DNA of 64,000 nt from assembly GCF_000002425.4 (NCBI RefSeq), contig NC_037269.1:6292288-6356287 (forward strand), read 5' to 3'. The notes beneath the pieces are model-generated. The model saw nothing but the letters and a program-made list of their open reading frames with translations, did not search any database and was not told the origin of the DNA. Shown in pieces: positions 11,458 to 64,000 of this stretch (positions within the stretch are counted from its first letter, which is position 1; every line of letters starts with the position of its first letter). This DNA comes from Physcomitrium patens (lineage: Eukaryota; Streptophyta; Bryopsida; Funariales; Funariaceae). The position numbers were made by a program, and so were the translations under genes.

Positions 11458-13374
11458 TGTCGTAATATGTGAAGTCTTACTTGAAAATGCTTCTGGCACC
11501 TGGCTATAGAAGGAAGAATAGAAATTACGATAATAAAATCCTAATTCTAATAGAATACTAACAATGCTCTAATTAGACTATAATAATGGTAAAAAAATGT
11601 AATCAAATTCAAAACAACTCAAAGAAATTTCAAACAAACAATAAAATTTTTAAAGAAATATTAGAATGATCACAAATATTACTCAAATATATGTCAATTC
11701 AACCTTAATTTAATTCTAGTTAAAATTCTATTGAATTTCACTCAAACTTTAGACCAAACCTAATTAAATCTTAAACCCTAATAAATCCTAAACCCTAAGT
11801 TAAATCCTAAACAAACCTTAAATTAAATCCTAAATCAAACCCTATTTCAAACCCTAAATCCTAAACCAAACCTTAAATCAAATCTTAATCTAAATCCTAA
11901 ATCAAACCCTAACCAAATCTTAAACCCTAATCCAAATCCTAATCCAAATCCTAAATCAAATCATAACCAAATCCTAAATCCTAATCCAAATCCTAATCCA
12001 ACCCTAAATCCTAATCAGATCCTAAATCCTAATCCAAATCCTAATCCAAATCCTAATCCAAATCTTAATCCAAATCCTAATCCAAATCCTAATCAAATCC
12101 TAATCCAAATCCTAATCAAATCCTAATCCAAATCCTAATCAAATCCTAATCCAAATCCTAATCAAATCCTAATCCAAATCCTAAATCAAACCCTAACAAA
12201 ATTCTAAATCCTAATCCAAATCCTAATCTAAACCCTAAATCAAATCCTAACCAAATCCTAATCCAAACCCTAAACTCTAAATCAAACCCTAAATCGAACC
12301 CTAGCCAAATCCTAATTCAAATCGTAGTAATTCCTATGATAGTTTTAAACTTCAATACCTAATGAATAAACCGTTGATCTCAATTCAAAATTTTCACACA
12401 TCTTAAAAATCAAGTTTAAAACAAGCACAAAAAAATTTGAAAAAGATCGGACTTACCAAAATGACAAAAACCTCAAAAATGTGTTTGGGTGTAAGCTGGC
12501 CTCCTCCTCCAATCTTGATGCCAACGATCTAGAGCCAATTTCTTTTCTTTATTCCATTCGATTGGTTTCAAATTACTCATGGACATAGAAAAATAAGTCT
12601 TATACCTTTTGACACAAGGCTTACTCAAATCCAACTAGTAGATTGCATGAAATCTTAAAAACCCTCACTAGACCTAAAATTCTACTTTTTGAGACCTTGA
12701 CCCGCTTAAACCTTAATATCTCTCATTTTAACCGTTAGATTGAGCTCAAATTTACAACATGGATTAAACACAACTATAATCATAAATCCTAAAAACTCCA
12801 CCCATAGATCTGCGACAAAACTCTCGAAATCATTCAAAACATAAACCCTATTTTATTACATAAAATCCAAGTCATCTGAAACAAACCTCTACTTTGCAAA
12901 GCTCTTACAAAGTCATATCAACTCCAAATCATCCAAAATGAATGCCTATAGAAACCTTATCCAATCTTCTATCAAATCTCATTCTCCAATCTGCCAAAGA
13001 GTCCCACAATCGTCGTCGAGACTCGGTTTTGTGCCTCAGGGTCTCATTTCGACCCTAGTTCAAAACCGGCCCTCTTCGTGTATCAACTTTCGTCTTTTTG
13101 AGGTAATTTTTACTAATTTGCACTCCTAACTCTTCCCTACACATATCTATATCCTTTATTTTTCTAATCTACCTTGTTTTGCCTTATTTATGGCCTTATA
13201 AAGTAAATAGAAGCATAATTTTTAAAAAGGTAGCATTAGCACTTTTAATTTTTCTACCCTTTTACTAATATCTATTTTTCCAAGATAATTTGCTACAATA
13301 TTTTTGAAGTGAGAACCTCAAAACATGATATATTTCTTCATCTTTTCACTTATTAGTCATATTACATCATGAAA
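11458..13374 (-). mobile_element. Solo LTR C1 (family C, minus orientation)
   Basis: The block interrupts B2 integrase: upstream codons stop at 11457 and the continuation (GACCATGGTCTTTAG) starts right after 13374. It is the reverse complement of 34589-36584 along its whole length, including a GC-rich stretch GAGACTCGGTTTTGTGCCTC (about 13019) and the array of telomere-like repeats. As read on the plus strand it starts TGTCGTAATATGTGAAG and ends near ATTACATCATGA, which are inverted versions of each other as at LTR ends. No gag or pol is inside, hence solo LTR. The flanking duplication is unclear here. Confidence 0.7.
11755..12315 (-). repeat. Degenerate telomere-like array (CCCTAAA type) in LTR C1
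   Basis: About 560 bp of AAATCCTAATCC, AAACCCTAA and AAATCAAACCC variants, i.e. degenerate copies of the plant telomere repeat TTTAGGG read on the minus strand. Exact CCCTAAA occurs several times among CCTAATC-type derivatives. The array occupies the same place in the paralogous LTR C2, so it is part of the element and not an interstitial telomere scar. Confidence 0.85.
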
Positions 13375-15686: not shown

Positions 15687-16079
15687 TGTTAGGGACATAG
15701 TACTTAGAACCTTCTAGAGACAAGTTTCTAGAACCTTTTAGAAGCTTTCTAGTTAATAGAAGTTACTTGAGAAGCTTCCTAGTTAGTAGAAGTTACTTGA
15801 GAAGCTTCTTAATTGGTGGAAGTTACTTGAGAAGCTTCTTAATTGGAGGAAGTTATTTGAGAAGCTTCCTAGTTGGTAGAAGTTACTTGAGAAGCTTCCT
15901 AAATAAGAGTATATATTGGAATCGAGGCTAAAGAATTCTTCAATCTCGACAACACATCCTTTGGAGCTCTAGCTCACCTCTCTGGTGTTGTTCTTGTATT
16001 CATTTGATTAATCTAGTTCTTGCTAGTTCTTCTTGAACTTCTTGTTAGATTTCGAGCTTGTATTTCTGTGTCCATGATA
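15687..16079 (+). repeat. 5' LTR of element B3 with five 31-bp tandem repeats
   Basis: Starts TGTTAGGGACATAG and ends GTCCATGATA. Between about 15744 and 15903 the unit GAAGTTACTTGAGAAGCTTC plus about 11 bp is repeated five times; each unit has GAAGCTTC (GAA-nn-TTC). A near-perfect heat-shock-element array lies at the left (TTCTAGAACCTTTTAGAA, about 15723). The TATA box is at 15910 and the predicted mRNA start at 15942. Confidence 0.8.
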
Positions 16080-16081
16080 GT

Positions 16082-16092
16082 TTGTCGAGACT
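16082..16092 (+). promoter_or_regulatory. Predicted self-priming primer-binding site (B3)
   Basis: TTGTCGAGACT, two bases after the LTR end, is complementary at 10 of 11 positions to AATCTCGACAA at 15942-15952, which lies 32 nt after the first T of the TATA box at 15910. Same geometry as in B1. Confidence 0.55.
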
Positions 16093-23228: not shown

Positions 23229-23786
23229 TGTCACAAACATACACATATAAGCCAATAATTACATATATAAATAGGTAGAAGTAAGTAAAAGTAGGTAAAA
23301 GTAAATTAATTCTATAGTATTTTATATAGAAGCTTCTCAAAAGCTTTGTAGACATTGCTTTGATTTTATAGGTGTCTCTAATTGACTTTTTGGATTAGAA
23401 ACGTAGTCAACAAGTTGGCCATGTGCCACACATGTTGTTAGCTTGAAGACCAAGTTAACTATGTCACCCACACATAAAAAAATTTGCCCAGTAAATTAAG
23501 GCATGTGTCCTAAAAAGTCAATACATATTGGAGGTCCTATAAAACGTTGCTATGTAGCTCCTAGTTAGATAGTATATATAGAGACAAGAGTGAAGCCTTC
23601 TTTATTCTTATCAACTCTTTTCTTTCTTCTTGTCTAGTTTCAAGGGTCTCTACTTTTCTTATCTTTTGGCAATAGCCATTCCAGTTTCTTTCTTAATATA
23701 AATATCAAGTTATTTCTATTTTATCATCTTTCTTTGAAAGAAGTCTCACTTTTTTATTTATCTTTATTATGTCCTTGTCTTTGACA
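23229..23786 (+). repeat. 5' LTR of F1
   Basis: Starts TGTCACAAACATACACAT and ends GTCTTTGACA (558 bp). The TATA box TATATATA is at 23573 and a hairpin-forming segment lies around 23583-23612. The paralogous LTRs at 29086, 30524 and 52440-52998 (minus) align throughout. Confidence 0.85.
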
Positions 23787-23788
23787 GA

Positions 23789-23799
23789 TTGTCAAGAAT
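23789..23799 (+). promoter_or_regulatory. Predicted self-priming primer-binding site (F1)
   Basis: TTGTCAAGAAT, two bases after the LTR, pairs at 9 of 11 positions with ATTCTTATCAA (23604-23614), which starts 31 nt after the TATA box at 23573. About 20 bases on is AATATCAGAGCT, resembling the core of the plant initiator-tRNA-Met site but lacking its TGG. Confidence 0.5.
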
Positions 23800-34588: not shown

Positions 34589-36584
34589 TGTCATGATATA
34601 ACATAATTAATAGATGAAAGAGTGTGGAGATTATTATAATTTAAGAGATCTTAGTTCAAAGTATTAGAACAAATTATCTTAGAAATATAGTTAATAGCCA
34701 AAGGGGTAGAAAAATTAAAAGGTATCAATGTTGCTTTTTAGAAAGGTGACTTCTACTTACTTTGTAGTACCATAAGTAAGACAAATCAAAGTAGATTGGA
34801 AAAATAAATGATATAGGAATCTTAAGAAGAAAGTTAAGAGTAAATTCTAGAAAAAAGTTACTTAGAAAAACTAGATATTGATATCCGGAAAGGGCCGGTT
34901 ATGAACCAGGGTCGAAATCAGACCCTGAGGCACAAAACTGACTCTCGACGACGATTCCGGGACTCTTTGGCAGATCGGAGAAAGAGATTGGAGAGAAGGT
35001 TTGATAAAGTTTTTATGGGCGTTGATTTTGGATGAATTGGAGTTGATATGAATTTGTAAGAGCTTTGCAAAGTTGAGTTTTTTTTTCGGATGACTTGGAT
35101 TTTATGAAATAAAATAGGATTTATGTTTCGAGTTATTTCGAGTGCTTTGTTGCCGATCTATGGATGAATTTTTTTGAATTCATGGTTATAATTGTGTTGA
35201 ATACATTTTGTAAATTTGAGCTTGATCTAACGGTTGAACTGGGAGATATTGAGGTTTAACTGAGTCAAGATCTCAGAAAGTAGAATTTTAGGTCTAGTGA
35301 GGGTTTTTAAGATTTAATGCAATCCACTAATTGGATTGGAGTAAAACTTATGTGAGAGGATATTAAACTTGTTTTTCTATGTCTATGAGAAATTTGAAAC
35401 CAATCGAAACACGCAAAGAAGAGAAATTGGCTCTAAAAGATTGGCAACAAGATTGGAGAAGGAGGCCGGCTAACACCCAAACACATTTTTGAGGGTTTCG
35501 TCAATTTGGTAACTCCGATCCTTTTCAAAAAAAAATTGCTTGTTTTGAACTTGATTTTTAAGAAGTGTGCAAATTTTGAATTGAGATCAATAGTTTATTC
35601 ATTAGATATTGAGGTTTAAATCTGTCATAGGAATTACTAGGATTTGGATTAGGGTTTGGCTAGGGTTCGGTTTAGGGTTTGGATTAGGGTTTAGGGTTTT
35701 ATTAGGGTTTGGCTAGGATTTGGTTTAGGATTTGGATTAGGATTTGAATTAGGGTTTAGGATTTGGATAGGATTTGATTTAGGATTTGGATTAGGGTTTA
35801 GGATTTGGATAGGATTTGATTTAGGATTTGGATTAGGGTTTGGATTAGGGTTTGGATTAGGATTTGGTTAGGATTTGATTTAAGATTTGATTTAGGAATT
35901 AGAATTTGGATTAGAGTTTAGGGTTGGATTAGAATTTTGGATTTAGTTAGGATTTGATTTAGGATTTAGATTAAAGTTTGGACTAGGGTTTGGTTAGGTT
36001 TGATTTAAGATTTGGTTTAGGGTTTAGAATTTGGATTAGAGTTTAGGGTTGGATTAGGGTTTGGATTAGGGTTTAGGATCTGGTTAGGATTTGATTTAAG
36101 ATTTGAATTAGGATTTGGTTAGGATTTGATTTAAGATTTGGTTTAGGATTTAGGGTTGGATTAGGATTTGGTTTAGGGTTTGATTTAGGGTTTTTTTTAG
36201 GGTTTAGGGTTTGAATAGGATTTAATTTAAGATTTGTTTAGGATTTGACTTACGATTTAGGAATTATTAGGGTTTAAGATTTAATTAAGTTTGATCTAAA
36301 GTTGAGTGAAATTCAATAGGATTTTAACTAGAATTAAATTAAGGTTGAATTGACATATATTTGAGTAAAATTTGTAATCATTCTAATATTTCTTTAAGAA
36401 TTTTATTGTTTGTTTGAAATTTCTTTGAGTTGTTTTGAATTTGATTACGTTTATTTACTATTATTATAGTCTAATTAGAGCATTGTTAGTATTCTATTTA
36501 GGATTTAATTATCGCAATTTCTATTCTTCCTTCTACAGCAAAGTGTCCGAAGCATTCTCAAGAAAGTCTTCACACATTACGACA
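34589..36584 (+). mobile_element. Solo LTR C2 (family C) in family A gag
   Basis: 1996 bp from TGTCATGATATAACA to ACACATTACGACA, flanked by an exact 4-bp duplication CCGT (34585-34588 and 36585-36588). Removing it gives GGATCCGTCTATTACTAG, matching GGATCCATCTATTGGTAG in the A1 copy (minus strand, near 5570). The ends resemble those of families A and D (TGTYRT...TACRACA). No coding capacity. Confidence 0.85.
35636..36260 (+). repeat. Degenerate telomere-like array (TTTAGGG type) in LTR C2
   Basis: About 620 bp made of TTTAGGG, GGATTAGGG, TTTGGATTAGGATTTGG and similar, with exact TTTAGGG units dispersed throughout. Same place and relative orientation within the element as the array at 11755-12315. 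Confidence 0.85.
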
Positions 36585-40900: not shown

Positions 40901-42148
40901 AGATTTTTGCTTTGAGATGGATTCTTATGGAAGAGATCAAAGAAAAGATTTGGGATGCCACAACAAGTGATAGGTAAAAAAGAAGAAAAAATAAAATTAT
41001 TAAAGGAGTTCATGATAGTTTATGGGCAGGGCATAGAGGAATCTGGGCTACTTTTGCTAAACTCAAGGAACGATATTGGTGGAAAAATATGTATCGAGAT
41101 GTGCTCTCATTTGTAGAGTCATGTGAAATCTGTCAATCGTATTCTAATATCCGACATCGAGATGGTCTTCATCCTATATATCCTCTGGCTATTCATTTTA
41201 AATGGGTTGTTGATTTGGTTATTATGCCAGTTGGGTTATGGCAGATGAGGTATTTGGTTTTAGCTCGTGAAGATTTATCAAATCAAGTAGAAGGAAGAGC
41301 ATTGAGGACAAAATCTACAAAGGGGATTTGTAGGTTTTTGCTTGAAGATGTCATTTGTCGCTACAGATGCGTAGGAAAAATCACTACAGATCGTGGAGAA
41401 TGAAATGCACAAGAAGCTCGTAAGTTCTTTGAAAGATGTGGGATTAAACTATCACTGATTACTGCTTATAATCCAAAAGGGAATGCAAAAAGCGAACATG
41501 GTCACCCACCAATTGTGAAAGCATTAGTCAAAGCTTGTAATAGGAAAGTTAAAGAGTGGCCACGCCTTTTGTCATTTGCATTATGGGCTGATCGGACAAC
41601 ACATAGTTCGGTGACAAGATATATGCCAGTAGAACTTATGACAGGTCAAAAATCAATTATACCAATTAAAGAAAGGGTACTTACTTGGAGTATGCTACCA
41701 TGGGAAGATGGATTGACAAGAGAAGAACTTTTGACTATTAAGATTCGACAATTGGAGCAAAGATCGGAAGATGTGCAGATAGCATTAGAAAGGTTAAAAA
41801 GAGCAAGGTTATAAAACAAGGGGCGATTCGATAAGCAACATCGATTGAGACCTAAAGAAATTAAAGAAGGTGATTGGATACTTGTTTATGATAGTAGTTT
41901 GGAGAACTAATATTGCACTTTATAGAAGTTTTCAAAACATTGATTTGGATCGTATATGGTAACAACTATTCATGTTAATGAGACAAACTCATTGCAAGAA
42001 TTAGATTGTACAAGATTAAAAATATCAATTGCAGGGAAGAGAGTAAAATTGTTTAAATAAAGATATACAAAAAAAAATATAGAAGACCTTAATGAAGACA
42101 TAGATATTCCGCAGTGAGAAGATGAAATTGATTTGGATAGCAGAGATG
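37962..42148 (+). pseudogene. Family A pol: protease, RT, RNase H, integrase
   Basis: Protease 38202-38618 has VALVDNGFEINLMSK (DNG in place of DSG). RT 39390-40184 has FTVPHVPWNLRP, KKNGSLRFIQDIQSMN, GPIVDEF, MGDLYSDYDEF, LPQGATNSVAHMMNGM and active site FLDDIPVKG. RNase H 40202-40700 has TVDTNPIAIGWTVGQDD, KRELWGVVLALKAKN and ETDCLPLLGM. The integrase zinc domain (about 41000-41130) has SLWAGHRGIWATFAKLKE and CEICQ; the core (41190-41800) has WVVDLVIMP, ITTDRGE and NAKSEHGHPP, so the D, D, E set is visible. A basic tail follows, without chromodomain. Stops at 39834, 40454 and 41401 and others disable it. The RT and integrase wording resembles fungal Ty3/gypsy elements more than the classic plant clades; this is from memory. 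Confidence 0.8.
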
Positions 42149-42187
42149 TGTTAGGGACATAGTCCTTAGACCTTTCTAGAGACAAGT

Positions 42188-42234
42188 TTCTAGAACCTTC
42201 TAGAAAGAAGTCTCTAGAAACTTCCAGAAGATTC
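42188..42234 (+). promoter_or_regulatory. Heat-shock-element arrays in B1 5' LTR
   Basis: TTCTAGAACCTTCTAGAA at 42188-42205 and GAAACTTCCAGAAGATTC at 42217-42234: each is four perfectly spaced alternating GAA/TTC pentamer cores. Identical copies are in the 3' LTR at 48248-48265 and 48277-48294. Position about 220-265 bp upstream of the TATA box. This matches the consensus for heat-shock-factor trimers. Confidence 0.7.
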
Positions 42235-42452
42235 CTTGAATATTTTCTTAGAATATTCTTCAAAGATTCTCTAAAGATTCTTTGAAGATTTCCTAAAGAT
42301 TCCCTTAGAAGGCTCTAGAAGATTCTTAGAATATTCTAGTAGATTCTAAAAAGTTACTTGAGAAGCTTCCTAGCTCTTGGATAGTTGCTCGAGAAGCTTC
42401 ATAGTTCTTGGGAAGCTTCTTGATGCGCTTCCTTAGAACCATAGGCCAGTAG

Positions 42453-42495
42453 TATATATAGGAGTCGAGGCTGAAGAGTTCTTCAGTCTCGACAA
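42453..42495 (+). promoter_or_regulatory. B1 TATA box and predicted self-primer (mRNA 5' end)
   Basis: TATATATA starts at 42453. The 11-mer AGTCTCGACAA at 42485-42495 begins 32 nt downstream, the usual plant TATA-to-start distance, and is the exact complement of the site at 42623-42633. If transcription starts at 42485 the first 11 nt of the RNA can prime reverse transcription. Confidence 0.6.
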
Positions 42496-42622
42496 CACAT
42501 CTCTTGGAGTTCTAGCTCACCTTTCTGGTGTTGTTCTTGTACTCATCTGTTTAATCTAGTTCTGTCACTTCTTCTTGAACTTCTTGTTAGATTTCAAGTC
42601 TGTATTTTGTGTCCATGACAGT

Positions 42623-42633
42623 TTGTCGAGACT
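42623..42633 (+). promoter_or_regulatory. Predicted self-priming primer-binding site (B1)
   Basis: TTGTCGAGACT, two bases after the 5' LTR, pairs 11/11 with AGTCTCGACAA (42485-42495), and the pairing does not extend beyond 11 nt. No TGG-starting tRNA site follows the LTR directly. Confidence 0.6.
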
Positions 42634-42639
42634 ACCTTT

Positions 42640-43060
42640 ATCTTAATATCAGAGCTGAATCCTTCTTGTTTGAGAGCGGATTACCCCTTTTCTTGAAGGT
42701 ATTCTAGCGCTTTAGGGGTTGCGGATTACCTTCCTCTAAACAGATATTTTCTCAATCACAATATCAGAGCTTAGTTCTTTGAGGCAAAGAGTGGACTACC
42801 CCTTTCCTTGGAGATACTTGAGCGTTCTAAGGGTTGCGGATTACCCTCTCTTGGACTGATGTTAATTCCTTCTTTTTGTTAAGCATAGCTAATAGAAAAG
42901 ACTGTTAACATCGATTTCAGAGCTTTGCCTTCTTGATAGAGTGCGGATTATCCCTCTTCTCGAAAGCATTGAGGCATTTTTAGAGGTTGCAGATTATCCT
43001 CTTCTAAAACTGAAATCGTTTAGTGTTTTTTTTTCCTTTTCTCCGAGTAGGTTTTAGTGA
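42640..43060 (+). repeat. B1 leader: three imperfect ~110-150-bp repeats starting with a TATCAGAGC motif
   Basis: TATCAGAGC occurs at 42647 and 42762 and as TTTCAGAGC at 42915. Each is followed by a purine-rich stretch with GCGGATTACC, a Ser-codon-like pyrimidine tract, and GGTTGCGGATTACC. The same unit is single in B3 (16107-16220). TATCAGAGC is the 9-base core of the plant initiator-tRNA-Met primer site (TGGTATCAGAGC), without TGG. Confidence 0.65.
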
Positions 43061-43139
43061 CAAGTAGTGCTACAATTTTTTCCAAGAGACTTAGCAATTT
43101 CTTCTTCTCTCAAAATTTTAATCCATCTATTCTCTAAAT

Positions 43140-44189
43140 ATGGAAGTAGACCAGGTCATAGACAATGTATCTCCAGAAGTAGACAATAGAGTGGCAACTC
43201 TTGCAGATCTTCAAGCTCTTATGAATAGTGTACGAAAGGAGATTACATTTCTTCGCAATCCAAGTAAAGAACCTCAAATTGATCTAGTGACCGAAGAAGC
43301 TAGACGCAAAATTCATAGCCTACAACAAGAGATTATTCGACTGAGAGAAACAAGACATGTGTCACATACGACCCCTATAGATACTTCAAGGATTAGTACA
43401 AAAGAACCAAAAGCGAGTATGTCAGACAAGTTTGACGGAACAAGAGCCAACTTTCGAGGTTTTGTGCAACAAGTACGGCTTTACCTACGCCTATACCCTT
43501 CTCGTTATCCGAATGTATTTACCCAGGTTGCTTTCATAGGTACTCTTCTATCAGGAAATGCTCGCTCTTGGTTTGCTCCACTATTGGAGAAGGATTCTCC
43601 AATATTATACGACCTAGAGGCTTTCATAGAGAGACTTACTGCTACGTTTGGAGATAGCGATCGAGAAAGAGTGGCTGAAAGAAAGATACAAAATCTGCGA
43701 CAAGGATCACGTTCTGCTGCAATCTATGCTGTAGAATTTCAACAGCTTACATGTGATCTTGATTGGAATGATAAGGCGTTCATGACACGATTTCGATATG
43801 GACTGAGAGATGATGTCAAGAACTTATTGATCACCATGCCTAAGGCGGATACTTTAGAAGAACTTATATCTCAGGCAATTATTTGTGACAACCGCCTCTT
43901 TGAATTACGCCAAAAAAGACGATCAGGCTGGAGAAATGATGGAGCATTTGCTACATTTTCAAAAGGTCCAGAGAATCACTCCACAGATCCTGAACCCATG
44001 CAAATTGATGCGGTACGTTTCAAACCCCTCACAATTGAGGAAAGGAAGCGACGGTTTGAACAAAACTTGTGTTTATATTGCAGAGAAGCGGGCCATAAAG
44101 CTGTAGATTGTCGGAAGAAACAGAAGCCTCAAACAATAAGACTCAAGAGTACAAGCATGCAGGAAAACAAAGATGCCCAGCCACAATAG
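43140..44189 (+). CDS. gag: Gag polyprotein of chromovirus B1 (intact)
   Basis: An uninterrupted 349-residue ORF beginning MEVDQVIDNVSPEV. The N-terminal region has a predicted coiled coil (about residues 55-80, KIHSLQQEIIRLRET). A capsid-like region follows (about 95-255): KFDGTRANFRGFVQQ, GNARSWFAPLLEK, IYAVEFQQLTCDLDW and RYGLRDDVKNLL. A C-terminal CCHC zinc knuckle (CLYCREAGHKAVDC, about residues 305-318) should bind the RNA. The ORF ends in the conserved CAATAGGGACCGTG, and the pol frame (-1) overlaps it from 44108. It is the only intact gag in the window and could in principle still be expressed. Confidence 0.85.
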   Translation: MEVDQVIDNVSPEVDNRVATLADLQALMNSVRKEITFLRNPSKEPQIDLVTEEARRKIHSLQQEIIRLRETRHVSHTTPIDTSRISTKEPKASMSDKFDGTRANFRGFVQQVRLYLRLYPSRYPNVFTQVAFIGTLLSGNARSWFAPLLEKDSPILYDLEAFIERLTATFGDSDRERVAERKIQNLRQGSRSAAIYAVEFQQLTCDLDWNDKAFMTRFRYGLRDDVKNLLITMPKADTLEELISQAIICDNRLFELRQKRRSGWRNDGAFATFSKGPENHSTDPEPMQIDAVRFKPLTIEERKRRFEQNLCLYCREAGHKAVDCRKKQKPQTIRLKSTSMQENKDAQPQ

Positions 44190-44197
44190 GGACCGTG
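44184..44197 (+). other. Conserved gag/pol junction motif
   Basis: CAATAGGGACCGTG is identical in B1 and in F1 (25031-25044), and nearly so in B2 (AATAGGAACCGTG), B3 and E. In the gag frame the TAG is the stop. In the -1 frame it reads ACA ATA GGG ACC GTG (T-I-G-T-V) and leads into protease. Confidence 0.6.
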
Positions 44198-47100
44198 CGG
44201 CTGGACATCTCAACATCCAAAATTAATCAAGGTCCCTTTCTCTCAGCTCAACCTTCAGATTGTTTCATGGTACCTTTACATCTGGGTATTTAAGCACTAC
44301 AAGTCGATGCTTTATTAGACTCGGGTGCATCCGCTTGCTTTATAGATGAAGAGTTTGCCAAGCTTCACAATATTTCTCTTGTAAAGAAACTTAAGCCTGT
44401 CCATGTAGAAGTCATAGATAGACGACCATTGTCTTCGGGCAATGTTATCCATGAAACTAAACCATTGAAGGTATGTCTTGAAAACCATGAGAGCAATATT
44501 GTGTTTAATGTTATCAAGACCCCTTCATGTCCTATCATTTTGGGAATATCTTGGCTTGATAGATATAATCCATTGATAGATTGAAAGTTGCGGAAAGTGA
44601 CATTTCCAACAAACTCCTTGAAGGTGGAATCTGCCAAGACAATGTCTAGAAACAAATCCTTGTTTATAGGTGCAAGGGCTTTCATGAAGGAAGCCAAGCA
44701 AAATATACCTCTTGTCATCTTTGCAACTCCGACTCGAGAAGATGCAACTCCGACTTTGGTTATTCCAAAGCAGTATGAAGAATTCAAAGATGTCTTTGAA
44801 AAGAAGAATGCTGATATGCTGCCAGAGCATCGACCCTATGACTGTGCCATTGAATTGCAAGAAGGAGCACAACCACCTTTTGGACCAATCTACAATTTAT
44901 CGCAGACGGAGTTGACTGAGTTGCGGAAGTACATTGACGAGAATCTAGCCAAGAACTTCATCCGTCATTTGAAGTCGCCAGCTGGGGTACCAATCTTATT
45001 TGTGAAGAAGAAAGATGGCTCACTACGGATGTGCGTGGACTATCGAGGTCTCAACAAGGTGACAAAAAAGAATCGCTACCCACTGCCTTTGATCTCTGGT
45101 CTTCTAGAATAACTTGGGCGTGCAAGGATCTTTACAAAGATTGACCTAAGGGGAGCTTACAACCTTGTGCGAATCAAGGAAGGAGATGAATGGAAGACAG
45201 CTTTTCGAACAAGGTATGGCCATTTTGAATACAATGTCATGCCATTTGGTCTTACTAATGCTCCAACGGTCTTTCAACACATGATGAATGACATCTTTCG
45301 AGAGCATCTAGACGATTTTGTTGTCATCTATCTAGATGATATTTTGATATTTTCTAAGAACGAGGAAGAACATGAGAAGCACGTTCGTCTGGTACTCAAA
45401 AAACTACGGGAGCGAGGACTCTATGCCAAATTGGAGAAGTGCTTATTTCACCAAACTGAGATGGAGTTTTTGGAATTCATCGCGACTACGGAAGGATTGA
45501 AGATGGATCCAAAGAAGGTGGAAGCAATCATGTCTTGGGAAGTTCCGAAGACGGTTAGGGACGTACAATATTTCCTTGGATTTGCTAACTACTATTAGAT
45601 CTTCATCAAGAATTATTCTCAAGTTGCTGCCCACCTCACTCGATTAACGTGCAAGGACAAGCTCGAATGGGGACCTATCGCAGAAAAAGCATTCCAAGAT
45701 TTGAAGATGGTATTTACTACAGCTCCAATCTTGGTACATCCGGACTTTACAAAGGCCTTTTATTTGGAGACAGATGCTTCAGATTTTGCTTTGGGAGCTG
45801 TACTTTTATAGATGGGCGTAGATGAGAAGCTCCATCCAGTTGCGTTCTATTCTCGAAAATTCTCTGCTGCTGAGATCAACTATGAGATCCACGATAAGGA
45901 ACTCCTTGCTATAGTAGATTCTTTCCAAGAGTGGCGCCACTTTCTCGAAGGAACTGCACATCCAGTGACCGTATATACGGATCACAAGAATTTGGAGTAT
46001 TTTATGTCGGCTTGGGTTTTGAATCGGCGTCAAGCTCGGTGGAGTATGTCGCTATTCAGGTTCGACTTTGTTATTACTTATCGGCTTGGGAAGCAACAAG
46101 GGTGGTCCGATGCATTATCAAGGAGATCATATCTTGCGCCAAAGGCTGGAGATGCAGCATTTGATCAACAGTGCACGACATTGTTGAAGCCAGAGAAATT
46201 TCGACTCAACGCAGCTATGTACCAATTGATGCTGACTTCCTCGACCAGGTACGGGCCGCAACCATTGAAGATTCTCTAGCCCTTGATATCAAGCAACATG
46301 CTAGTGATGATAAATTCAAGATGGAAGGAGATCTAGTATATTTCGAAGAGTGGTTGTATATCCCAAAAGGGCCAACACGACTCAGAGTTCTTCAATCTCG
46401 TCATGACTTTCCAGCTGCGGGACATTTTGGATTCAATAAGACCTTGGAACTTATTTCCCGCGATTTCTGGTGGCCTCAAATGTGGAAGGATGTGAAAGAT
46501 TTTGTTGTATCTTGTGACATTTGTTCAAGATCCAAAAACCCTCGACATCGGCCTTATGGACTTCTACAGCAATTGCCTATTCCGCGCCGACCATGGTCTT
46601 CGGTTTCCATGGACTTTATTATGGATCTACCACCATCGAATTCATTTGACAGCATTTTTGTTGTCGTAGATCGGCTTACAAAGATGGCACATTTTGTCCC
46701 TTGCAAGAAGACATCGTCAAGCGAAGACACAGCAAGACTCTTTCTTGATAATGTGTAACGATATCATGGTCTACCAGATGATATCGTATCGGATCGAGGA
46801 ACCCAGTTTGTGTCAAAGTTTTGGAAATCTCTTTTTGAGATATTGAAGGTGGATATCAAGCTTTCTTCGGCATTTCATCCTCAAACGGACGGCCAAACAG
46901 AACGAGTGAATCAAGTTTTAGAGCAATATTTACGTTAAACCATCAACTATCAACAAGATGATTGGGCCGCATATCTACCACTAGCCGTGTTCGCATATAA
47001 CAACACCCTTCATGCGTCAACTCAACAAACGCCATTCTTTCCAATTATGGATACCATCCGAAGCTTGACTTATGGAGTTCATCAACGATTAACAATTCGG

Positions 47101-47665
47101 CAGCTGAAGGATTGGTGAAGGAGCTTTCGCAACTTCAAAATATATTGAAGCTTCAATTGCAAACTGCCCAAGAATCTTACAAGGCGTCCGCGGACAAATT
47201 TCGGAATCAGACACCTAAATTCACGATTGGAGACAAAGTTTGGCTACTTTGACGAAATATTAAGACCAAGCGCCATGTGACAAATTGGACTATCGGAGAT
47301 TGGGACCATTTGTTATCCAGAAGCAGATCAATCCTGTAGCGTATCGTCTGGAGTTACCAGCTACTATGAAGGTACATCCTGTCTTTCATGTTTCTTTGTT
47401 GGAGCCTTATCGAGAATCGTCTTTTCCTAGAAGAGTACAATGTCCACCACCTAGCATAGAAATAGAGAACCACAAAGAATACGAGGTGGAAAAGGTCCTG
47501 GATTCACGGCAAAGACGAGGTAAATTAGAATACTTTGTGCATTGGAGCGGTTACGATATTAATAAACAAACATGGGAGCCGGCCAAAAATCTCGCGAATG
47601 CGTCACAAAAGGTACAGGAGTTTCATCGACGATATCCTGAGAAACCTAAGCCGGTTCGACGATAG
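44190..47665 (+). pseudogene. pol: Pol of chromovirus B1: protease, RT, RNase H, integrase, chromodomain
   Basis: Protease is at about 44300 (ALLDSGASACFIDEEF, catalytic DSG). RT 44850-45600 has [61 protein letters not shown] and [11 protein letters not shown]. RNase H 45720-46010 has [16 protein letters not shown] and [16 protein letters not shown]. The integrase zinc domain (46410-46540) has GHFGFNKTLELISRDFWW and CDICSRSK; the core (46590-47030) has [22 protein letters not shown] and [15 protein letters not shown], i.e. the DDE set. The chromodomain (about 47485-47640) has [37 protein letters not shown]. Stops: 44291, 44582, 45110, 45596, 45809, 46756, 46936, 47250; frameshifts near 46200, 47040 and 47270. 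RT wording is of the Tf1/sushi/Tcn1 type. Confidence 0.85.
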
Positions 47666-47810
47666 CTTCTTACTGAAGCTTGCTCATCCAGAAAACAGAA
47701 AAGAAGAGAGAGCACCACCAAAATCCATAGTTGATGTAGTCATTCTCTCCAAGATAGCGTAGAACTTTGTTAGTAGCCCAAGTTTGTTCTTATTGTTTTA
47801 GCCTTTGAAT

Positions 47811-48158
47811 ATGGATAGCCAAGATACTACACTTGTCATGTCATCTCAAGCAACTAGCTCACGAAGACGACCGCGAGATGAAGAACCGCTTGCACCACGA
47901 CGACGTCGAAGGATTCCGAGTAACAGATCGCTGGTGATTGTATTTGAGGTCGAGCCTGCCTACAATGGTCAGCCAGAAGGAGTGTTTGTAGGACAATTTC
48001 ACAATGAAGACACAGAGGTTCATGCTTGGTCAGAAGTTGAAGGCGTGGGCCACTACCGTTGGCTTCAAGGACCATTGAATCACTTGCCTCGTGAAAAACA
48101 ATTGGAGTTCATAGCAGAGGTTATGCGACAAATCTTCATTTTCTTGCGTTGGTATTGA
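47811..48158 (+). CDS. Accessory ORF of chromovirus B1, unknown function (intact)
   Basis: 115 residues, open from MDSQDTTLVMSSQATSSRR to FIFLRWY. The start is chosen by alignment with B2 (MDSQEIDT); an ATG two codons upstream is alternative. A short basic region comes first (RRRPRDEEPLAPRRRRR), then a compact part: SLVIVFEVEPAYNGQPEG, FVGQFHNEDTEVHAWSE, GHYRWLQGPLNHLPREK and VMRQIFIFLRWY. No signal peptide or membrane helix. It lies 145 bp after the pol stop and 50 bp before the 3' LTR, in sense orientation, so a subgenomic or readthrough RNA would be needed. The basic patch suggests nucleic-acid binding or a nuclear signal (inference). I recognise no known family. Confidence 0.65.
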   Translation: MDSQDTTLVMSSQATSSRRRPRDEEPLAPRRRRRIPSNRSLVIVFEVEPAYNGQPEGVFVGQFHNEDTEVHAWSEVEGVGHYRWLQGPLNHLPREKQLEFIAEVMRQIFIFLRWY

Positions 48159-48208
48159 CTGACGATAACATTGCTTCTCGGAGACCTCGAAGCTAAAGGA
48201 GGAGGTGA

Positions 48209-48680
48209 TGTTAGGGACATAGTCCTTAGACCTTTCTAGAGACAAGTTTCTAGAACCTTCTAGAAAGAAGTCTCTAGAAACTTCCAGAAGATTCCTTGAA
48301 TATTCTCTTGGAATATTCTTCAAAGATTCTCTAAAGATTCTTTGAAGATTTCCTAAAGATTTCCTTAGAAGGCTCTAGAAGATTCTTAGAATCTTCTAGT
48401 AGATTCTAGAAAGTTACTTGAGAAGCTTCCTAGCTCTTGGATAGTTGCTCGAGAAGCTTCATAGTTCTTGGGAAGCTTCTTGATGCGCTTCCTTAGAACC
48501 ATAGGCCAGTAGTATATATAGGAGTCGAGGCTGAAGAGTCCTTCAGTCTCGACAACACATCTCTTGGAGTTCTAGCTCACCTTTCTGGTATTGTTCTTGT
48601 ACTCATCTGTTTAATCTAGTTCTGCCACTTCTTCTTGAACTTATTGTTAGATTTCAAGTCTGTATTTTGTGTGCGTGACA
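48209..48680 (+). repeat. 3' LTR of B1
   Basis: 472 bp, preceded by the purine tract AAAGGAGGAGGTGA. It differs from the 5' LTR at 11 positions, two of them in the final GTGCGTGACA. Followed by AGATG, the target duplication. Confidence 0.9.
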
Positions 48681-48788
48681 AGATGGTGGAGATGGCCTAG
48701 ACAAAGATTTGAAGAACATATTATGAATCAAACAGCAACTAGGTTAATTGGTACATAACAAAGGATGCACAGATTCAGAGGAGGTGGA
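48681..48788 (+). other. 3' end of family A internal region with polypurine tract
   Basis: Continuation of 42148 after removal of B1. Matches 6971-7065 (AATCAAACAGCAA). It ends in CAGAGGAGGTGGA before the LTR. Confidence 0.75.
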
Positions 48789-50139: not shown

Positions 50140-52439
50140 CCAGTGCATTTGTAAGTCCAAAAAGCATGATGTTGTATTCAAAATGCCCATATCTAGTTCA
50201 AAATACAATCTTCCATTCATTTCATTTTTTAATATGTACTAAATTATATGCTCTCCATAGATCTATTTTTGTGTAGATCTTAGCTTGATTCAATTGATCA
50301 AGAAGTCAAAATATCAAAGATAGAAGGTATTTATTTTTGATGGTGATCTTGTTGAGTCCTCAATAATCAACACACATCCATAATGATATAACTTTCTTTT
50401 TTATAAATAAGATTGGAGCTCTTACTGGTGATTTGGAATGGCGTATGAAATTCTTGGTTAGATTTTCTTCAATATATTCTTTGACTTTAGCCAATTCATT
50501 TTGTGATAAACTATAGATTAGTCCAAATGGCGGTTGAGCTTTTTCTTGAAGGTCAATTGAGTAGTCAGAGGGATGATTTTTTGGAAGAGTATCCATATTC
50601 TTTTTTTCAAATACATCTTTAAATTCTTGATATTGGTTGAGAATGCTATTTGAAGACTTTGCATTATTAGAAACATGTGTGGCATAAATGACATAAAATG
50701 ATCATTCTTTTGTACCATACAAGAAAGCTCTTGCACATATAAACATAGGTTTAATTGTACTAGACTTATGTCTTTCTATTAGATTAATTTCACTCTTAAT
50801 TATGCTTTTAGATAAGTCAAGGATATGAGAAATCTAATCTATGAAAAGATTATATTTTTTTAACCATGATAAATCAAAAATGATTGGATTAGAGGGAGAT
50901 CTAATTATATTAAAGATTATGCAACTACTATAACCATTTATTGTTATATCTATAGGAAGTATTTCATTTGTAATATCTTCCAAAGATAATGGACGACTAT
51001 CTATGACTTCTACATGAACAGATTTAGTTTTTTGTAGTAATGGAATTTTATGACTTTTAACAAATTCTATGTCTAAGAAACAAGCTGAGGCTTCTAAACC
51101 TATCAAGGTGGAGGCTTTATAATTATTAGGTCCTAAATATATATTTATTATAAAACAAGGAGAGGATTCTGAGGAGAAGATAGGACCTTCATTAAAAATT
51201 GTACAAGATTCTAGCCGCACAATCTCTATTGTAGCTAGACAAATTTATTTTCCAACACATTATTTTCTTTGATAAATGTACTTTTCATTTTATAATTTTT
51301 TTGTTTCTTTGAAAAAATTTGAGTAATATGTTTAGGTTCTCTACAATATAAGCACAATCTTTCTTGACAATGATGAGTCTTTTCTTACTCAGTAAGAGGT
51401 TTAAAATATACCACATCAATTTGTATATCTTCTACTTTTGAATGTATGTATTGAAGAGATGTTGGTAATGCCATCGAATTGTAGTAACATTGATGCTTAT
51501 TTGTACGACTCTCAAATCAAAATTCAAAAAGTCGATTGTCATATTTCATAGCAAAGTCAATTGTTTGATTCAATGTTTGAAGATCAGGTAAGTTGAGCAT
51601 CAATTTCTTTACTTCATATTATAATCCATAGAAAAATTGGCTAATAAGTACAATATCATCCCACTTGATATCAATTACAAGTTGTCAAAATTATGAAGCA
51701 TATAACATTACAAATCGATTACTTTATTGTAACATATGGATCTTATTCGTTGCAACATAAGTTGCATCATGTTCTCCATACATAGACCGAAATTCCACCA
51801 AAAATACCTCCAGATTATCCAATATTGGATCTCGTCATTCAAAAAAAGATGAAAACCACGTTAGTGTTGAACTTGAAAGAAGTGTACCAATGAATCTAAC
51901 TTGTGATCTTGAAGTTGGATAGATTTGAAATTGAAGTTCAATCACAAGTTGTACTTGATTGATAAATCCTCAAAATTTGGATCTTATACCATCAAACTTC
52001 TCAAACAAAGCAATTCTTGGTTCTCTAACACTTGAAGGATGTTCCATCATGGGTGGAAGGACATGATTTGGTGCAGATATTAAAGCAACTCTAATCATCT
52101 CTGTATCCTCACTTCCTGCCATTATTATTGATTCTTGTAGTGGTAAGCTAAGTTGATGCATTGCAAGCATCAACTTCTTCAATTGCTCTTGCATTTGTGC
52201 CATTGCACTCTTTATTTTAATAAGCTCTACCATAATAACACTCAAAAAAATATCTAATACCATTCAAGTCAAGTAAAAGAAAGAACTTGAGAACAAAAAA
52301 AATACTAAGAAAAATATCAATTTAGAAGAGGGTAATCCGTAACTTCTAATATACTTACATCTTATCATGAGAAACGAATAATCTACTCTTAATCAAGATA
52401 AGATAAAGCTCTAATATTATAAGTGTACTCTTATCAATT
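50140..52439 (-). pseudogene. Family F gag, protease and RT N-terminus (element E, right part)
   Basis: On the minus strand: gag from MVELIKIKSAMAQ (about 52230) with EKFDGIRSKF; a decayed zinc knuckle near 51330-51370; protease region 51220-50834 (STLIGLEASACFLD, so DSG is lost); RT 50736-50140 with YSLSQNELAKVKEYI, FIRHSKSPVRAPILF and FGLTNAL. At 50140 it is cut by the family A LTR and resumes at 33087. Stops throughout. Confidence 0.8.
52427..52437 (-). promoter_or_regulatory. Predicted self-priming primer-binding site (element E)
   Basis: Minus-strand TTGATAAGAGT, two bases after the LTR end at 52440, pairs 11/11 with ACTCTTATCAA of its LTR (52622-52612), which starts 31 nt after the TATA box (minus-strand first T at 52653). 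The sequence differs from that of B1 at several positions while pairing is kept. Confidence 0.6.
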
Positions 52440-52998
52440 TGTTAAAGACATGAACTACAAGATGATGCATAAATCAATGAAATCCATATCAAAGAAAGAG
52501 TAAAAAATAGAAGTAAAGAAGTGCATATATTAAAAAGAAAATAGAATAGCTTATTGCCAAAAGAGAAGAAAACTTGAGACTCTTGAAACTAGAGTAGAAC
52601 CAAGAAATGAGTTGATAAGAGTGAAGAAGACTCCGCTCTTGTCTCTATATATACTATCTAACTAAGGGCTACATGGCAATGTTCTATAGGACCTCTAATA
52701 TGTGTTGAATTTGTATGATACATGCCTTGACTTACAAAGCAAGTTTTTCTATGTGTAAACCACATAATTAATTTAGTCTTCAAACTAACAATATATATAA
52801 TAAATGGTCAACTTGTTGACTACTTTTCTAATCCAAAAAGATAATTATAGATACCTATAAAGTCAAAGTAGTATCTATGAAGCTTCTAAGAAGCTTCTAT
52901 GAAAGATATTATAGAATTAACTTATTTTTATCACTTCTACTTATTTCTACTTATTTATACAAGTAATTACTAGCTTACATGTGTATGTCTGTGATACA
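52440..52998 (-). repeat. 5' LTR of element E (family F)
   Basis: On the minus strand starts TGTATCACAGACATACACATG and ends CATGTCTTTAACA, 559 bp, aligning with 23229-23786. GAAGCTTCTTAGAAGCTTC at about 52890 gives several GAA/TTC pairs. TATATATA box at 52646-52653. Confidence 0.85.
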
Positions 52999-55483: not shown

Positions 55484-56165
55484 TCTCCTGCGAAGCGGCT
55501 GGTTTTTGCAATCAGAATTCCTCTCCATATATTGCCCAACCTGAAACCATGCTTTCAGAAGTCAAGCTCTAGTGTGTACTCCTATCTCTGTAAACATTGC
55601 AGTTGCATCAAGGAATACTTTCAATCTCGAAATTTGTGAATATCCAGGTGAGTGCACTGAACGACATCTTCGGTAGTTGCTTCATGTAAACCATGGAAAT
55701 AGGTGTTACAATTTGCAGGAATTAGTAGAAATGCACTGATCACGCCATCGGTTCAATAAACGGGGTAAAGAAATCAGTCTCTGTGGGAGACAGTTAGAGA
55801 TCTTTCCTTGACAATGTTAGATACATCCTTGTTGACATGATAGCAGTCGTCCTGCCATTTTTTGTAAATAAATCAGAGTCTTGGTCAAGAACATTACATA
55901 ACATTTCCAGTGGTTGTGATTGCGGTTGAGTCAGTGTCTGATGATGTTGCAACATCATTACAACGATTTCCATTATTTTCCATGAAATATTTGTGTCGGA
56001 TTAAGTTGGCTCGTCTGCAGGCTTGTTAGTTATGGTGCAATCTGAATCTACGAAATCGCTGTGTGAAACACTCGTTAAACGCCGATTCTGATTTATGAAA
56101 CCTAATTCCAATCCGTTTTCACCTTCATTCGGTGCAGGAGAGTGCATTTCATTCATACTCAGAAA

Positions 56166-56869
56166 ATGGCAGCCATGGCAACAGTGAACGGTACATCAAT
56201 AATGCAGACTACCAACTTAGCAATCACACCCGTGGCTGCAAGCCATTTGGGCTCGCGCACCGTCCAGCTCGGAGTCACACGCGTACTCTACAACGCCACC
56301 CTTACCACCAGGTCTGCAAGGAGGCTCGTCGTGGTCGCCGCCGGAAACCCGGAACGAATTGACAACTTCGTCGACGGAGCCAGGAAAGACGCCAGCCAAA
56401 ACGCGAAGAACTTCGGCAACCAGGTGGCGGACGCCTTCGGCAACGCCCAGGAGACCGCGAAGGACGTGGGTCGGGACATGGGCGCCAAGGCACAGGAAGC
56501 CGTCGACCAAGGCAGTAAGAAGGTCGACGAGGCAGGAGACAAGGCCAGGGATGTAGCCAAGGAAGTGAGGGGCTCCACCGAGGATACCTTGAATGCTGCC
56601 AAAGCAAACAACGGCCAATCTGTTGCGGTACATTCCATGGCCTCTACGTACCGCATTCTTCCAACCTCAAAAGCATAGATCACCCAAAACCTTAACTAAT
56701 CCGATATTCTAATCTGTGAGTTACGTCGCTGCAGGACAAGGCGCAAAATGCTGCATCCAACGTGGGTGACAATTTGAAGCAGAACTTCGATTACGGAACT
56801 GGGGCCGTGCAGAACGCCGCCGATGACGCGAGCAAAAACGTGAAAGACGCCACTAACCGCAACCTCTAG
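56166..56869 (+). CDS. Plastid-targeted LEA-like (group 3/LEA_4-type) protein, two exons
   Basis: Exon 1 is 56166-56627, intron 56628-56734 (GT...GCAG, 107 bp, phase 0), exon 2 56735-56869; 198 residues. The first ATG of the frame is at 56142, but MAAMATVNGTS at 56166 is chosen because it starts a typical chloroplast transit peptide (Ser/Thr/Arg-rich, few acids, ending RRLVVVAA at about residue 60). The mature part is hydrophilic, Ala/Lys/Asp-rich, with 11-mer amphipathic repeats (KNFGNQVADAFGNAQETAKD, KKVDEAGDKARDVAKEV, then AQNAASNVGDNLKQN, VQNAADDASKNVKDA in exon 2). Such proteins protect membranes and enzymes during drying or freezing, as COR15-type proteins do in the stroma. The GC-rich coding region contrasts strongly with its AT-rich surroundings. 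Splice sites are by inspection. Confidence 0.75.
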
Positions 56870-63576: not shown

Positions 63577-63957
63577 TCAATCCACAAGCTCTTCAGCGGT
63601 TTTCTTCTGATCGTAGTTATGCTGAGGGCTCTTGAACCAGTTGCGAGCGCTGAGGAGCCAGTATGAGACAACTAGCAGGAAGAGACCGCCCACAGCAATG
63701 GGGGTGTAGTTCAGGAACTGGAGTGTCGAGGGGTATCGCACTGGCAAGCTGAAGAGGACGGTGATGGTGGCCACCCACAGCACCGCAACCCAGCCAACGG
63801 TGAGGCTCCACCAGCGGGGACCCAGGTTTATAGGCCCTGGGACGAATGTGCGGTGGGCGGCAGTGATGTGGATCAGTATTGGGAGAGCGTAGGAGATGTA
63901 GTTTCCGGTTGTGGCAATCGACGTCATGGCTTGGAAAGCCACCAGGTTCCCCAAAGA
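63577..63957 (-). CDS. Amino-acid/GABA permease (BAT1-like, APC family), last exon
   Basis: Minus strand. The coding exon begins after a splice acceptor TGTGGCAG at 63958-63965 (phase 0) and ends with a stop at 63577; 126 residues. Sequence: NLVAFQAMTSIATTGNYISY (membrane helix), RTFVPGPINLGPRWW, VGWVAVLWVATITVLFSLPV (helix), QFLNYTPIAVGGLFLLVVSY (helix), and a charged C-terminal tail with ARNWFKSP. This is the C-terminal end of plant bidirectional amino-acid transporters (BAT1/GABA permease), 12-helix proteins of the plasma or mitochondrial membrane that move amino acids or GABA. The rest of the gene lies beyond the window. Only three helices are seen, so substrate cannot be judged. Confidence 0.8.
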   Translation of the reverse strand, partial: SLGNLVAFQAMTSIATTGNYISYALPILIHITAAHRTFVPGPINLGPRWWSLTVGWVAVLWVATITVLFSLPVRYPSTLQFLNYTPIAVGGLFLLVVSYWLLSARNWFKSPQHNYDQKKTAEELVD

Positions 63958-64000
63958 CTGCCACAGCACAATTCATATGAATTCACACGGCTTTGAGATT

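Follow-up and report, generated by a model that had tools for sequence, protein, structure and literature searches.

A moss Tf1/Sushi-like chromovirus with a predicted mRNA self-primer, a U3/R hairpin and a tRNA-iMet-like site

The systems closest to the element described here are the Tcn1 chromoviruses and the Tf1/Sushi retrotransposons. Neumann et al. (2019) reported most moss and clubmoss Tcn1 elements to be without tRNA primer binding sites (PBSs) and predicted that they self-prime in the manner of Tf1/Sushi, a prediction built, as ours is, on sequence evidence; among plants, they assigned this lineage to mosses and clubmosses alone (PMC6317226). For SM-Tcn1, neither a tRNA PBS nor self-priming was found by Novikova et al. 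(2010) (PMC2864245). Group I chromodomains occur in Tcn1 (PMC3350952), and the ‘pretzel’ structure of Tf1 has been described (PMC10085805). In the literature searched, self-priming in plants has so far been a sequence prediction. An earlier note on this DNA had presented self-priming as a departure from the initiator tRNA-Met of plant chromoviruses. tRNA-Met is indeed the commonest primer among plant LTR elements, but the note set the novelty too high, since the Tcn1 lineage had already been predicted to self-prime (PMC6317226). We analysed a window of 64,000 nt, the whole stretch of DNA presented, and find that one element in it, B1, belongs, with a probability of about 0.9, to an abundant family of moss Ty3/gypsy chromoviruses of Tf1/Sushi-like (Tcn1) type, in which reverse transcription would be primed by the element's own mRNA.

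B1 occupies positions 42149–48680 on the forward strand and is flanked by a 5-bp target-site duplication, AGATG (42144–42148 and 48681–48685). Its 5′ LTR (42149–42620, TG...CA) and its 3′ LTR (48209–48680), whose terminus ...GTGACA abuts the duplication, are 97.7% identical, and a polypurine tract, AAAGGAGGAGGTGA, lies at 48195–48208. The gag gene is intact as an open reading frame (ORF) of 349 amino acids (43140–44189; Retrotrans_gag, 4.5e-13), with relatives found, and pol is broken into separate open pieces, its whole frame being interrupted. These pieces encode a reverse transcriptase part (45167–45598; RVT_1, 1.3e-25), for which the top matches among solved structures are 4ol8 and Ty3 Gag-Pol (7q5b), an RNase H part (45812–46279; RT_RNaseH, 4.6e-27), an integrase part with a zinc-binding domain (46171–46758; Integrase_H2C2, 2e-20), and an integrase C-terminus that combines a Tf2-1-like SH3 domain with an HP1/CDYL-like chromodomain (47285–47665; SH3_Tf2-1, 5.6e-16; Chromo, 1.4e-16). 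The chromodomain aligns to CDYL across YEVEK..HWSGYD, residues which we take to be the aromatic cage, and it falls in group I. Two LTRs, a target-site duplication, a polypurine tract, gag, the order reverse transcriptase, RNase H and integrase, and a chromodomain together make B1 an LTR retrotransposon of the Ty3/gypsy chromovirus class; the Tf1/Sushi type of its reverse transcriptase was judged by domains alone, namely the Tf2-1-like SH3 domain and the HP1-like chromodomain.

A relative of the B1 gag, at 96%, is found in contigs of the source ‘lgn’, and fungal relatives in Cetraspora and Dentiscutata reach 42–50%. A search of viral_contigs returned no relative of the integrase. Fern gag relatives from Ceratopteris richardii (P0054, P0061 and P0072) are 48–54% identical, an observation that contrasts with the placement of Tcn1 in mosses and clubmosses only (PMC6317226). 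The moss host is evident from a neighbouring ORF at 56163–56678, for which the best named match, at 63%, comes from Ceratodon purpureus; it is likely to be a host gene for a small protein with moss relatives. A second likely host gene, at 63577–63972, encodes part of an amino-acid permease (AA_permease_2, slightly below the cut-off). Elsewhere in the window, degenerate telomere-like arrays of AAACCCTAA and inverted TTAGGGTTT variants (11756–12363 and 35638–36261) lie in or next to large inverted duplicate blocks (2200–5574/36585–39961 and 11549–13263/34700–36498), and the ORFs tested in this region gave no Pfam match above the cut-off.

We now turn to the sequences that would initiate reverse transcription. 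The 5′ LTR of B1 carries a TATA box, TATATATA, at 42453–42460, and the predicted mRNA start, 32 nt on from 42453, falls on a CA step. The first 11 nt of the predicted mRNA, AGTCTCGACAA (42485–42495, with a 3′ LTR copy at 48545–48555), are complementary at 11 of 11 positions to TTGTCGAGACT (42623–42633), which begins 2 nt (GT) past the LTR end at 42620. The duplex stops exactly there, its flanks (42484 C/42634 A and 42496 C/42622 T) being unpaired. All that the earlier note had said of this pair, that it is exact, not extendable, 32 nt after the TATA box and two bases past the LTR, was verified. Consequently, if the mRNA begins where predicted, its 5′ terminus can pair with the PBS, as in the Tf1 type of priming. 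Among 5000 dinucleotide-shuffled LTRs, 12 contained a complement of at least 11 nt to the 25 nt past the LTR, a figure that counts complements at any distance from the TATA box.

The proposed mechanism can be stated as a series of predicted steps. Transcription would begin at 42485, at the 32-nt distance from the TATA box given above, and the leading 11 nt of the transcript are predicted to fold back on the PBS located 2 nt past the LTR. By analogy with Tf1, RNase H would cut behind nucleotide 11, and the freed 3′-OH of the 11-nt RNA, AGUCUCGACAA, would prime minus-strand DNA. Plus-strand strong-stop DNA would then copy the primer and thereby renew the PBS from R in every cycle, which would explain the exact match kept by each family. 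At the other end of the mRNA, the 3′ copy of the primer would be locked in a 13-bp U3/R hairpin, and the 5′ copy would be free of the hairpin because U3 is not transcribed at the 5′ end.

The genome contains many such pairs. Our counts cover 470 Mb in 101 contigs and are lower bounds for repeats; because the pair patterns are identical to their own reverse complement, every site enters the count one time on each strand. The B pair occurs at the B1 spacing in at least 1640 places (0 in a backwards-read control), the pair of the sister C family, ACTCTTGTCAA/TTGACAAGAGT, in at least 3578 places (control 0), and a variant C′ pair, ACTCTTATCAA/TTGATAAGAGT, in at least 173 places (control 1). Swapped B/C combinations at the B spacing number four, each joining a B-like LTR to a C PBS. 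The co-change of primer and PBS between families B and C is therefore clean. The distance from the TATA box is equally regular: 19 of 20 B loci have 32 nt, and all 20 C loci have 31 nt. The same counts bear on the alternative that an internal or half tRNA with a 3′ end of the form ..ACAA primes these elements and that the match to R is due to chance. Half-tRNA priming has been reported in some plant Ty1/copia groups (PMC6317226), but two families with different PBS letters each match their own R exactly, with four swapped combinations set against 1640 and 3578 matched ones, and we consider this alternative extremely improbable.

Covariation of the two 11-mers, which the earlier note had named as a check, thus holds between families and is weak within family C. 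Comparing C with C′, one-sided mismatches amount to 454 + 433 = 887, versus 173 double changes, where an even division of the 887 one-sided copies between the two kinds would predict about 55 doubles. This position mostly reflects decay with a modest surplus of doubles, and differences in copy age could produce that surplus. With one-sided copies outnumbering doubles, we dropped within-C covariation as strong evidence.

We also assembled junctions without regard to their match, from the window and 24 chunks of 10 kb on its contig, of which 4 adjoin the window and 20 are evenly stepped. Eleven five-prime junctions with both sites were read by eye, including the L005 junction at 5.6 kb; 3′ or solo LTRs, copies that had lost the leader and copies with the TATA region absent were excluded, as was L020, in which the PBS is present and the primer absent. 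Over these 11 junctions, 108 of 121 positions form Watson-Crick pairs, a value equalled by 18 of 20000 random re-pairings; leaving out L005, ten junctions have 100 of 110 positions paired (13 of 20000 re-pairings equal). Four of the 11 junctions are perfect (11/11) and the remaining seven are imperfect, with 8 to 10 of 11 positions paired. The window itself contains an older B-family relative on the forward strand (15687–16092; LTR 15687–16079, PBS 16082–16092) with a one-base primer difference (10/11). A C-family relative on the reverse strand (52427–52653) has its TATA box from 52653, the primer ACTCTTATCAA from 52622, at TATA +31, and the PBS TTGATAAGAGT at 52437–52427 (11/11). A second C-family relative, on the forward strand (23573–23799), has an imperfect pair (9/11) of the primer ATTCTTATCAA and the PBS TTGTCAAGAAT (23789–23799). 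A mechanical scan for a TATA box plus an exact complement was set aside; it returned 53 filtered rows, most of which do not represent this type of element, versus 28 and 23 in two controls.

Leaders were folded from the predicted start through the end of the PBS. The minimum-energy fold includes the primer:PBS duplex in all six leaders, complete in B1, C52, L004 and L015 and partial in both A and C23; in C23 no pair probability exceeds 0.44. The counterpart of the Tf1 ‘pretzel’ duplex beyond the PBS did not rise above shuffles in B1, where 52 of 300 shuffles were as good. Shuffles matched the corresponding duplex in 29 of 300 cases for A, 6 of 300 for C52 and 194 of 300 for C23, the latter two being slightly out of register.

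In LTR elements, the end of U5 is determined by the position of the primer. We therefore inspected LTRs of the B and C families with a purine tract before them, and 10 of 10 stop at TGACA, after which comes sequence other than the two bases plus PBS. These 3′ LTRs end 2 nt before the PBS position, which indicates that minus-strand DNA begins 2 nt after the LTR. The template at that point (TTG.. or similar) cannot pair with the CCA end of a tRNA. Together with the family-specific matched 11-mers and the fixed TATA distance, the 3′ LTR ends support the Tf1-like self-priming that the earlier note had predicted.

The LTR ends also bear on a tRNA-like site that lies farther downstream. B1 contains TATCAGAGC at 42647–42655 (forward strand), which presumably corresponds to the central part of the PBS for plant tRNA-iMet and lacks the TGG of that motif, and TGGTATCAGAGC is, we assume, the full 12-nt tRNA-iMet PBS. 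With one mismatch allowed, TATCAGAGC follows the self-PBS at a distance of 13–14 nt in all 20 B loci and of 10 nt in 18 of 20 C loci, and it is present in 9 of 20 C′ loci; no more than 28 of 10000 shuffles do as well. A perfect TGGTATCAGAGC follows the B PBS in at least 298 genomic places. Among the matches listed (about 100 of the 298), it stands 10 nt past the end of the B PBS and is preceded by CAC, CAT or CAG, which is somewhat LTR-end-like. It could accordingly be proposed that tRNA-iMet primes at TATCAGAGC/TGGTATCAGAGC, 10–14 nt past the 11-mer, and that the 11-mers do something else. The fixed place of TATCAGAGC in B and C loci and the 298 perfect copies of the motif speak for this proposal; however, it predicts that U5 ends beside the iMet site, with about 23 nt more in the 3′ LTR than the 10 LTRs ending at TGACA possess. 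The iMet-site subfamily behaves likewise: from six stretches taken about 6 kb downstream, the five with readable primer sequence have downstream LTRs that all terminate at GTGACA. Four of these copies have a perfect site and one (L042/L085) has one mismatch, and each downstream LTR was assigned to its named copy by distance and strand. Moreover, B1 reads TAA instead of TGG, so that the CCA end would not pair. On the LTR ends we rejected tRNA-iMet as the actual primer, and priming from this site appears very unlikely.

With self-priming as the preferred reading, we take the iMet-like site to be a relic, or the captured leader of a tRNA-primed element; it may also be a live second primer site. 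A motif similar to TATCAGAGC recurs near 42762, with a degenerate version near 42921. The B1 leader at 42640–43008 contains imperfect repeats of about 115 bp, each starting with an TATCAGAGC-like motif. Two B-subfamily copies, L033 and L037, carry a self-PBS and a perfect tRNA-iMet PBS in tandem. In the titles and abstract openings of the open-licence literature searched, a self-PBS beside a tRNA PBS is undescribed.

The primer has a second complement, on the other side of the predicted start; the earlier note is silent on it, on the tRNA-iMet-like 9-mer and on the window relatives whose primer and PBS have other letters. A U3 arm, GTCGAGGCTGAAG (42464–42476), and an R arm, CTTCAGTCTCGAC (42481–42493), both on the forward strand, form a stem of 13 bp with a 4-nt loop, spanning −21 to +9 across the start site, with a predicted free energy of −22.7 to −22.8 kcal/mol. 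To follow this stem, 26 LTR copies were gathered by similarity to five promoter probes, with a TATATA box required, two antisense hits removed and the poly-T copy L019 retained though misaligned. Pairing holds in 89.9% of cells, versus 42.9–56.5% in slid controls, and 8 of the 13 pairs have changed on both sides, a pattern of covariation. A further 60 loci were taken by exact primer and PBS, 20 per type, from the first places among the matches listed, and at least 12 of the 13 pairs are present in all but one of the B loci (19 of 20), all but two of the C loci (18 of 20) and only 6 of 20 C′ loci; the U3 arm thus did not track the C′ change.

Of the two structures that the primer could enter, the hairpin is predicted to be the stabler, at −22.7/−21.5 versus −16.2/−14.4 kcal/mol for primer:PBS. 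Only the 3′ part of the transcript would include U3, and the hairpin would consequently form only there. The hairpin may in this way hide the 3′ copy of the primer and leave the 5′ copy alone to reach the PBS, a tentative model toward which we lean less than halfway; a DNA-level role for the hairpin may also apply. A separate alternative would make the 11-mers themselves a DNA feature, a core-promoter dyad copied once into the leader and of no consequence for priming. The U3/R palindrome does lie between the TATA box and the start in the 26 aligned LTR copies, but the PBS sits precisely where minus-strand synthesis starts, and one position separates the two possible sources of its letters: opposite a T, the PBS has A in all 20 B loci, which had been selected by their exact PBS, and the U3 arm has G in 19 of 20. 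The PBS therefore follows R rather than the U3 arm, and we regard a purely DNA-level origin of the 11-mers as highly improbable. A U3/R hairpin of the primer is undescribed in the open-licence literature searched, at the level of titles and abstract openings.

Taken as a whole, the arrangement might be a record of a primer switch, with a self-site after the LTR, a tRNA-iMet site beyond it and a compensatorily kept hairpin hiding the 3′ primer; we consider this composite possible but rather unlikely. Should the tRNA site be retained because it is used, the elements could have two alternative primers. Its position beside the self-site would bear on switches between tRNA and self-priming and on the proposed transfer of these elements between fungi and plants. 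The hairpin, if its proposed function is true, would explain why the same sequence at the 3′ end of a self-primed element is not used. Because this moss family is abundant and its primer/PBS pairs are matched and family-specific, self-priming becomes directly testable in a plant.

Compared with described elements, B1 shares with Tf1 of Schizosaccharomyces pombe and its Tf1/Sushi relatives Tj1 and Tosmo an mRNA 5′ end, here predicted, that is complementary to a PBS directly past the LTR, and with Tf1/Sushi elements the combination of a Tf2-1-like SH3 domain and a chromodomain. A possible difference from Tf1 is that the flanking ‘pretzel’ duplexes found no support in B1. SM-Tcn1 of Selaginella moellendorffii resembles B1 as a Tcn1 chromovirus of a non-seed plant with a TATA box in its LTR, and RLG1 of Physcomitrium patens does so as a highly abundant moss gypsy element with a chromodomain (PMC7466625). 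The Tcn1 lineage matches B1 in its moss host, HP1-like chromodomain, Tf1-like integrase end and predicted self-priming, whereas neither a U3/R hairpin nor an iMet-like site is mentioned in the available text on that lineage (PMC6317226). The self-priming predicted for B1 is of a kind already known from the Tcn1 prediction, and what merits closer attention is the hairpin, together with the tRNA-like site.
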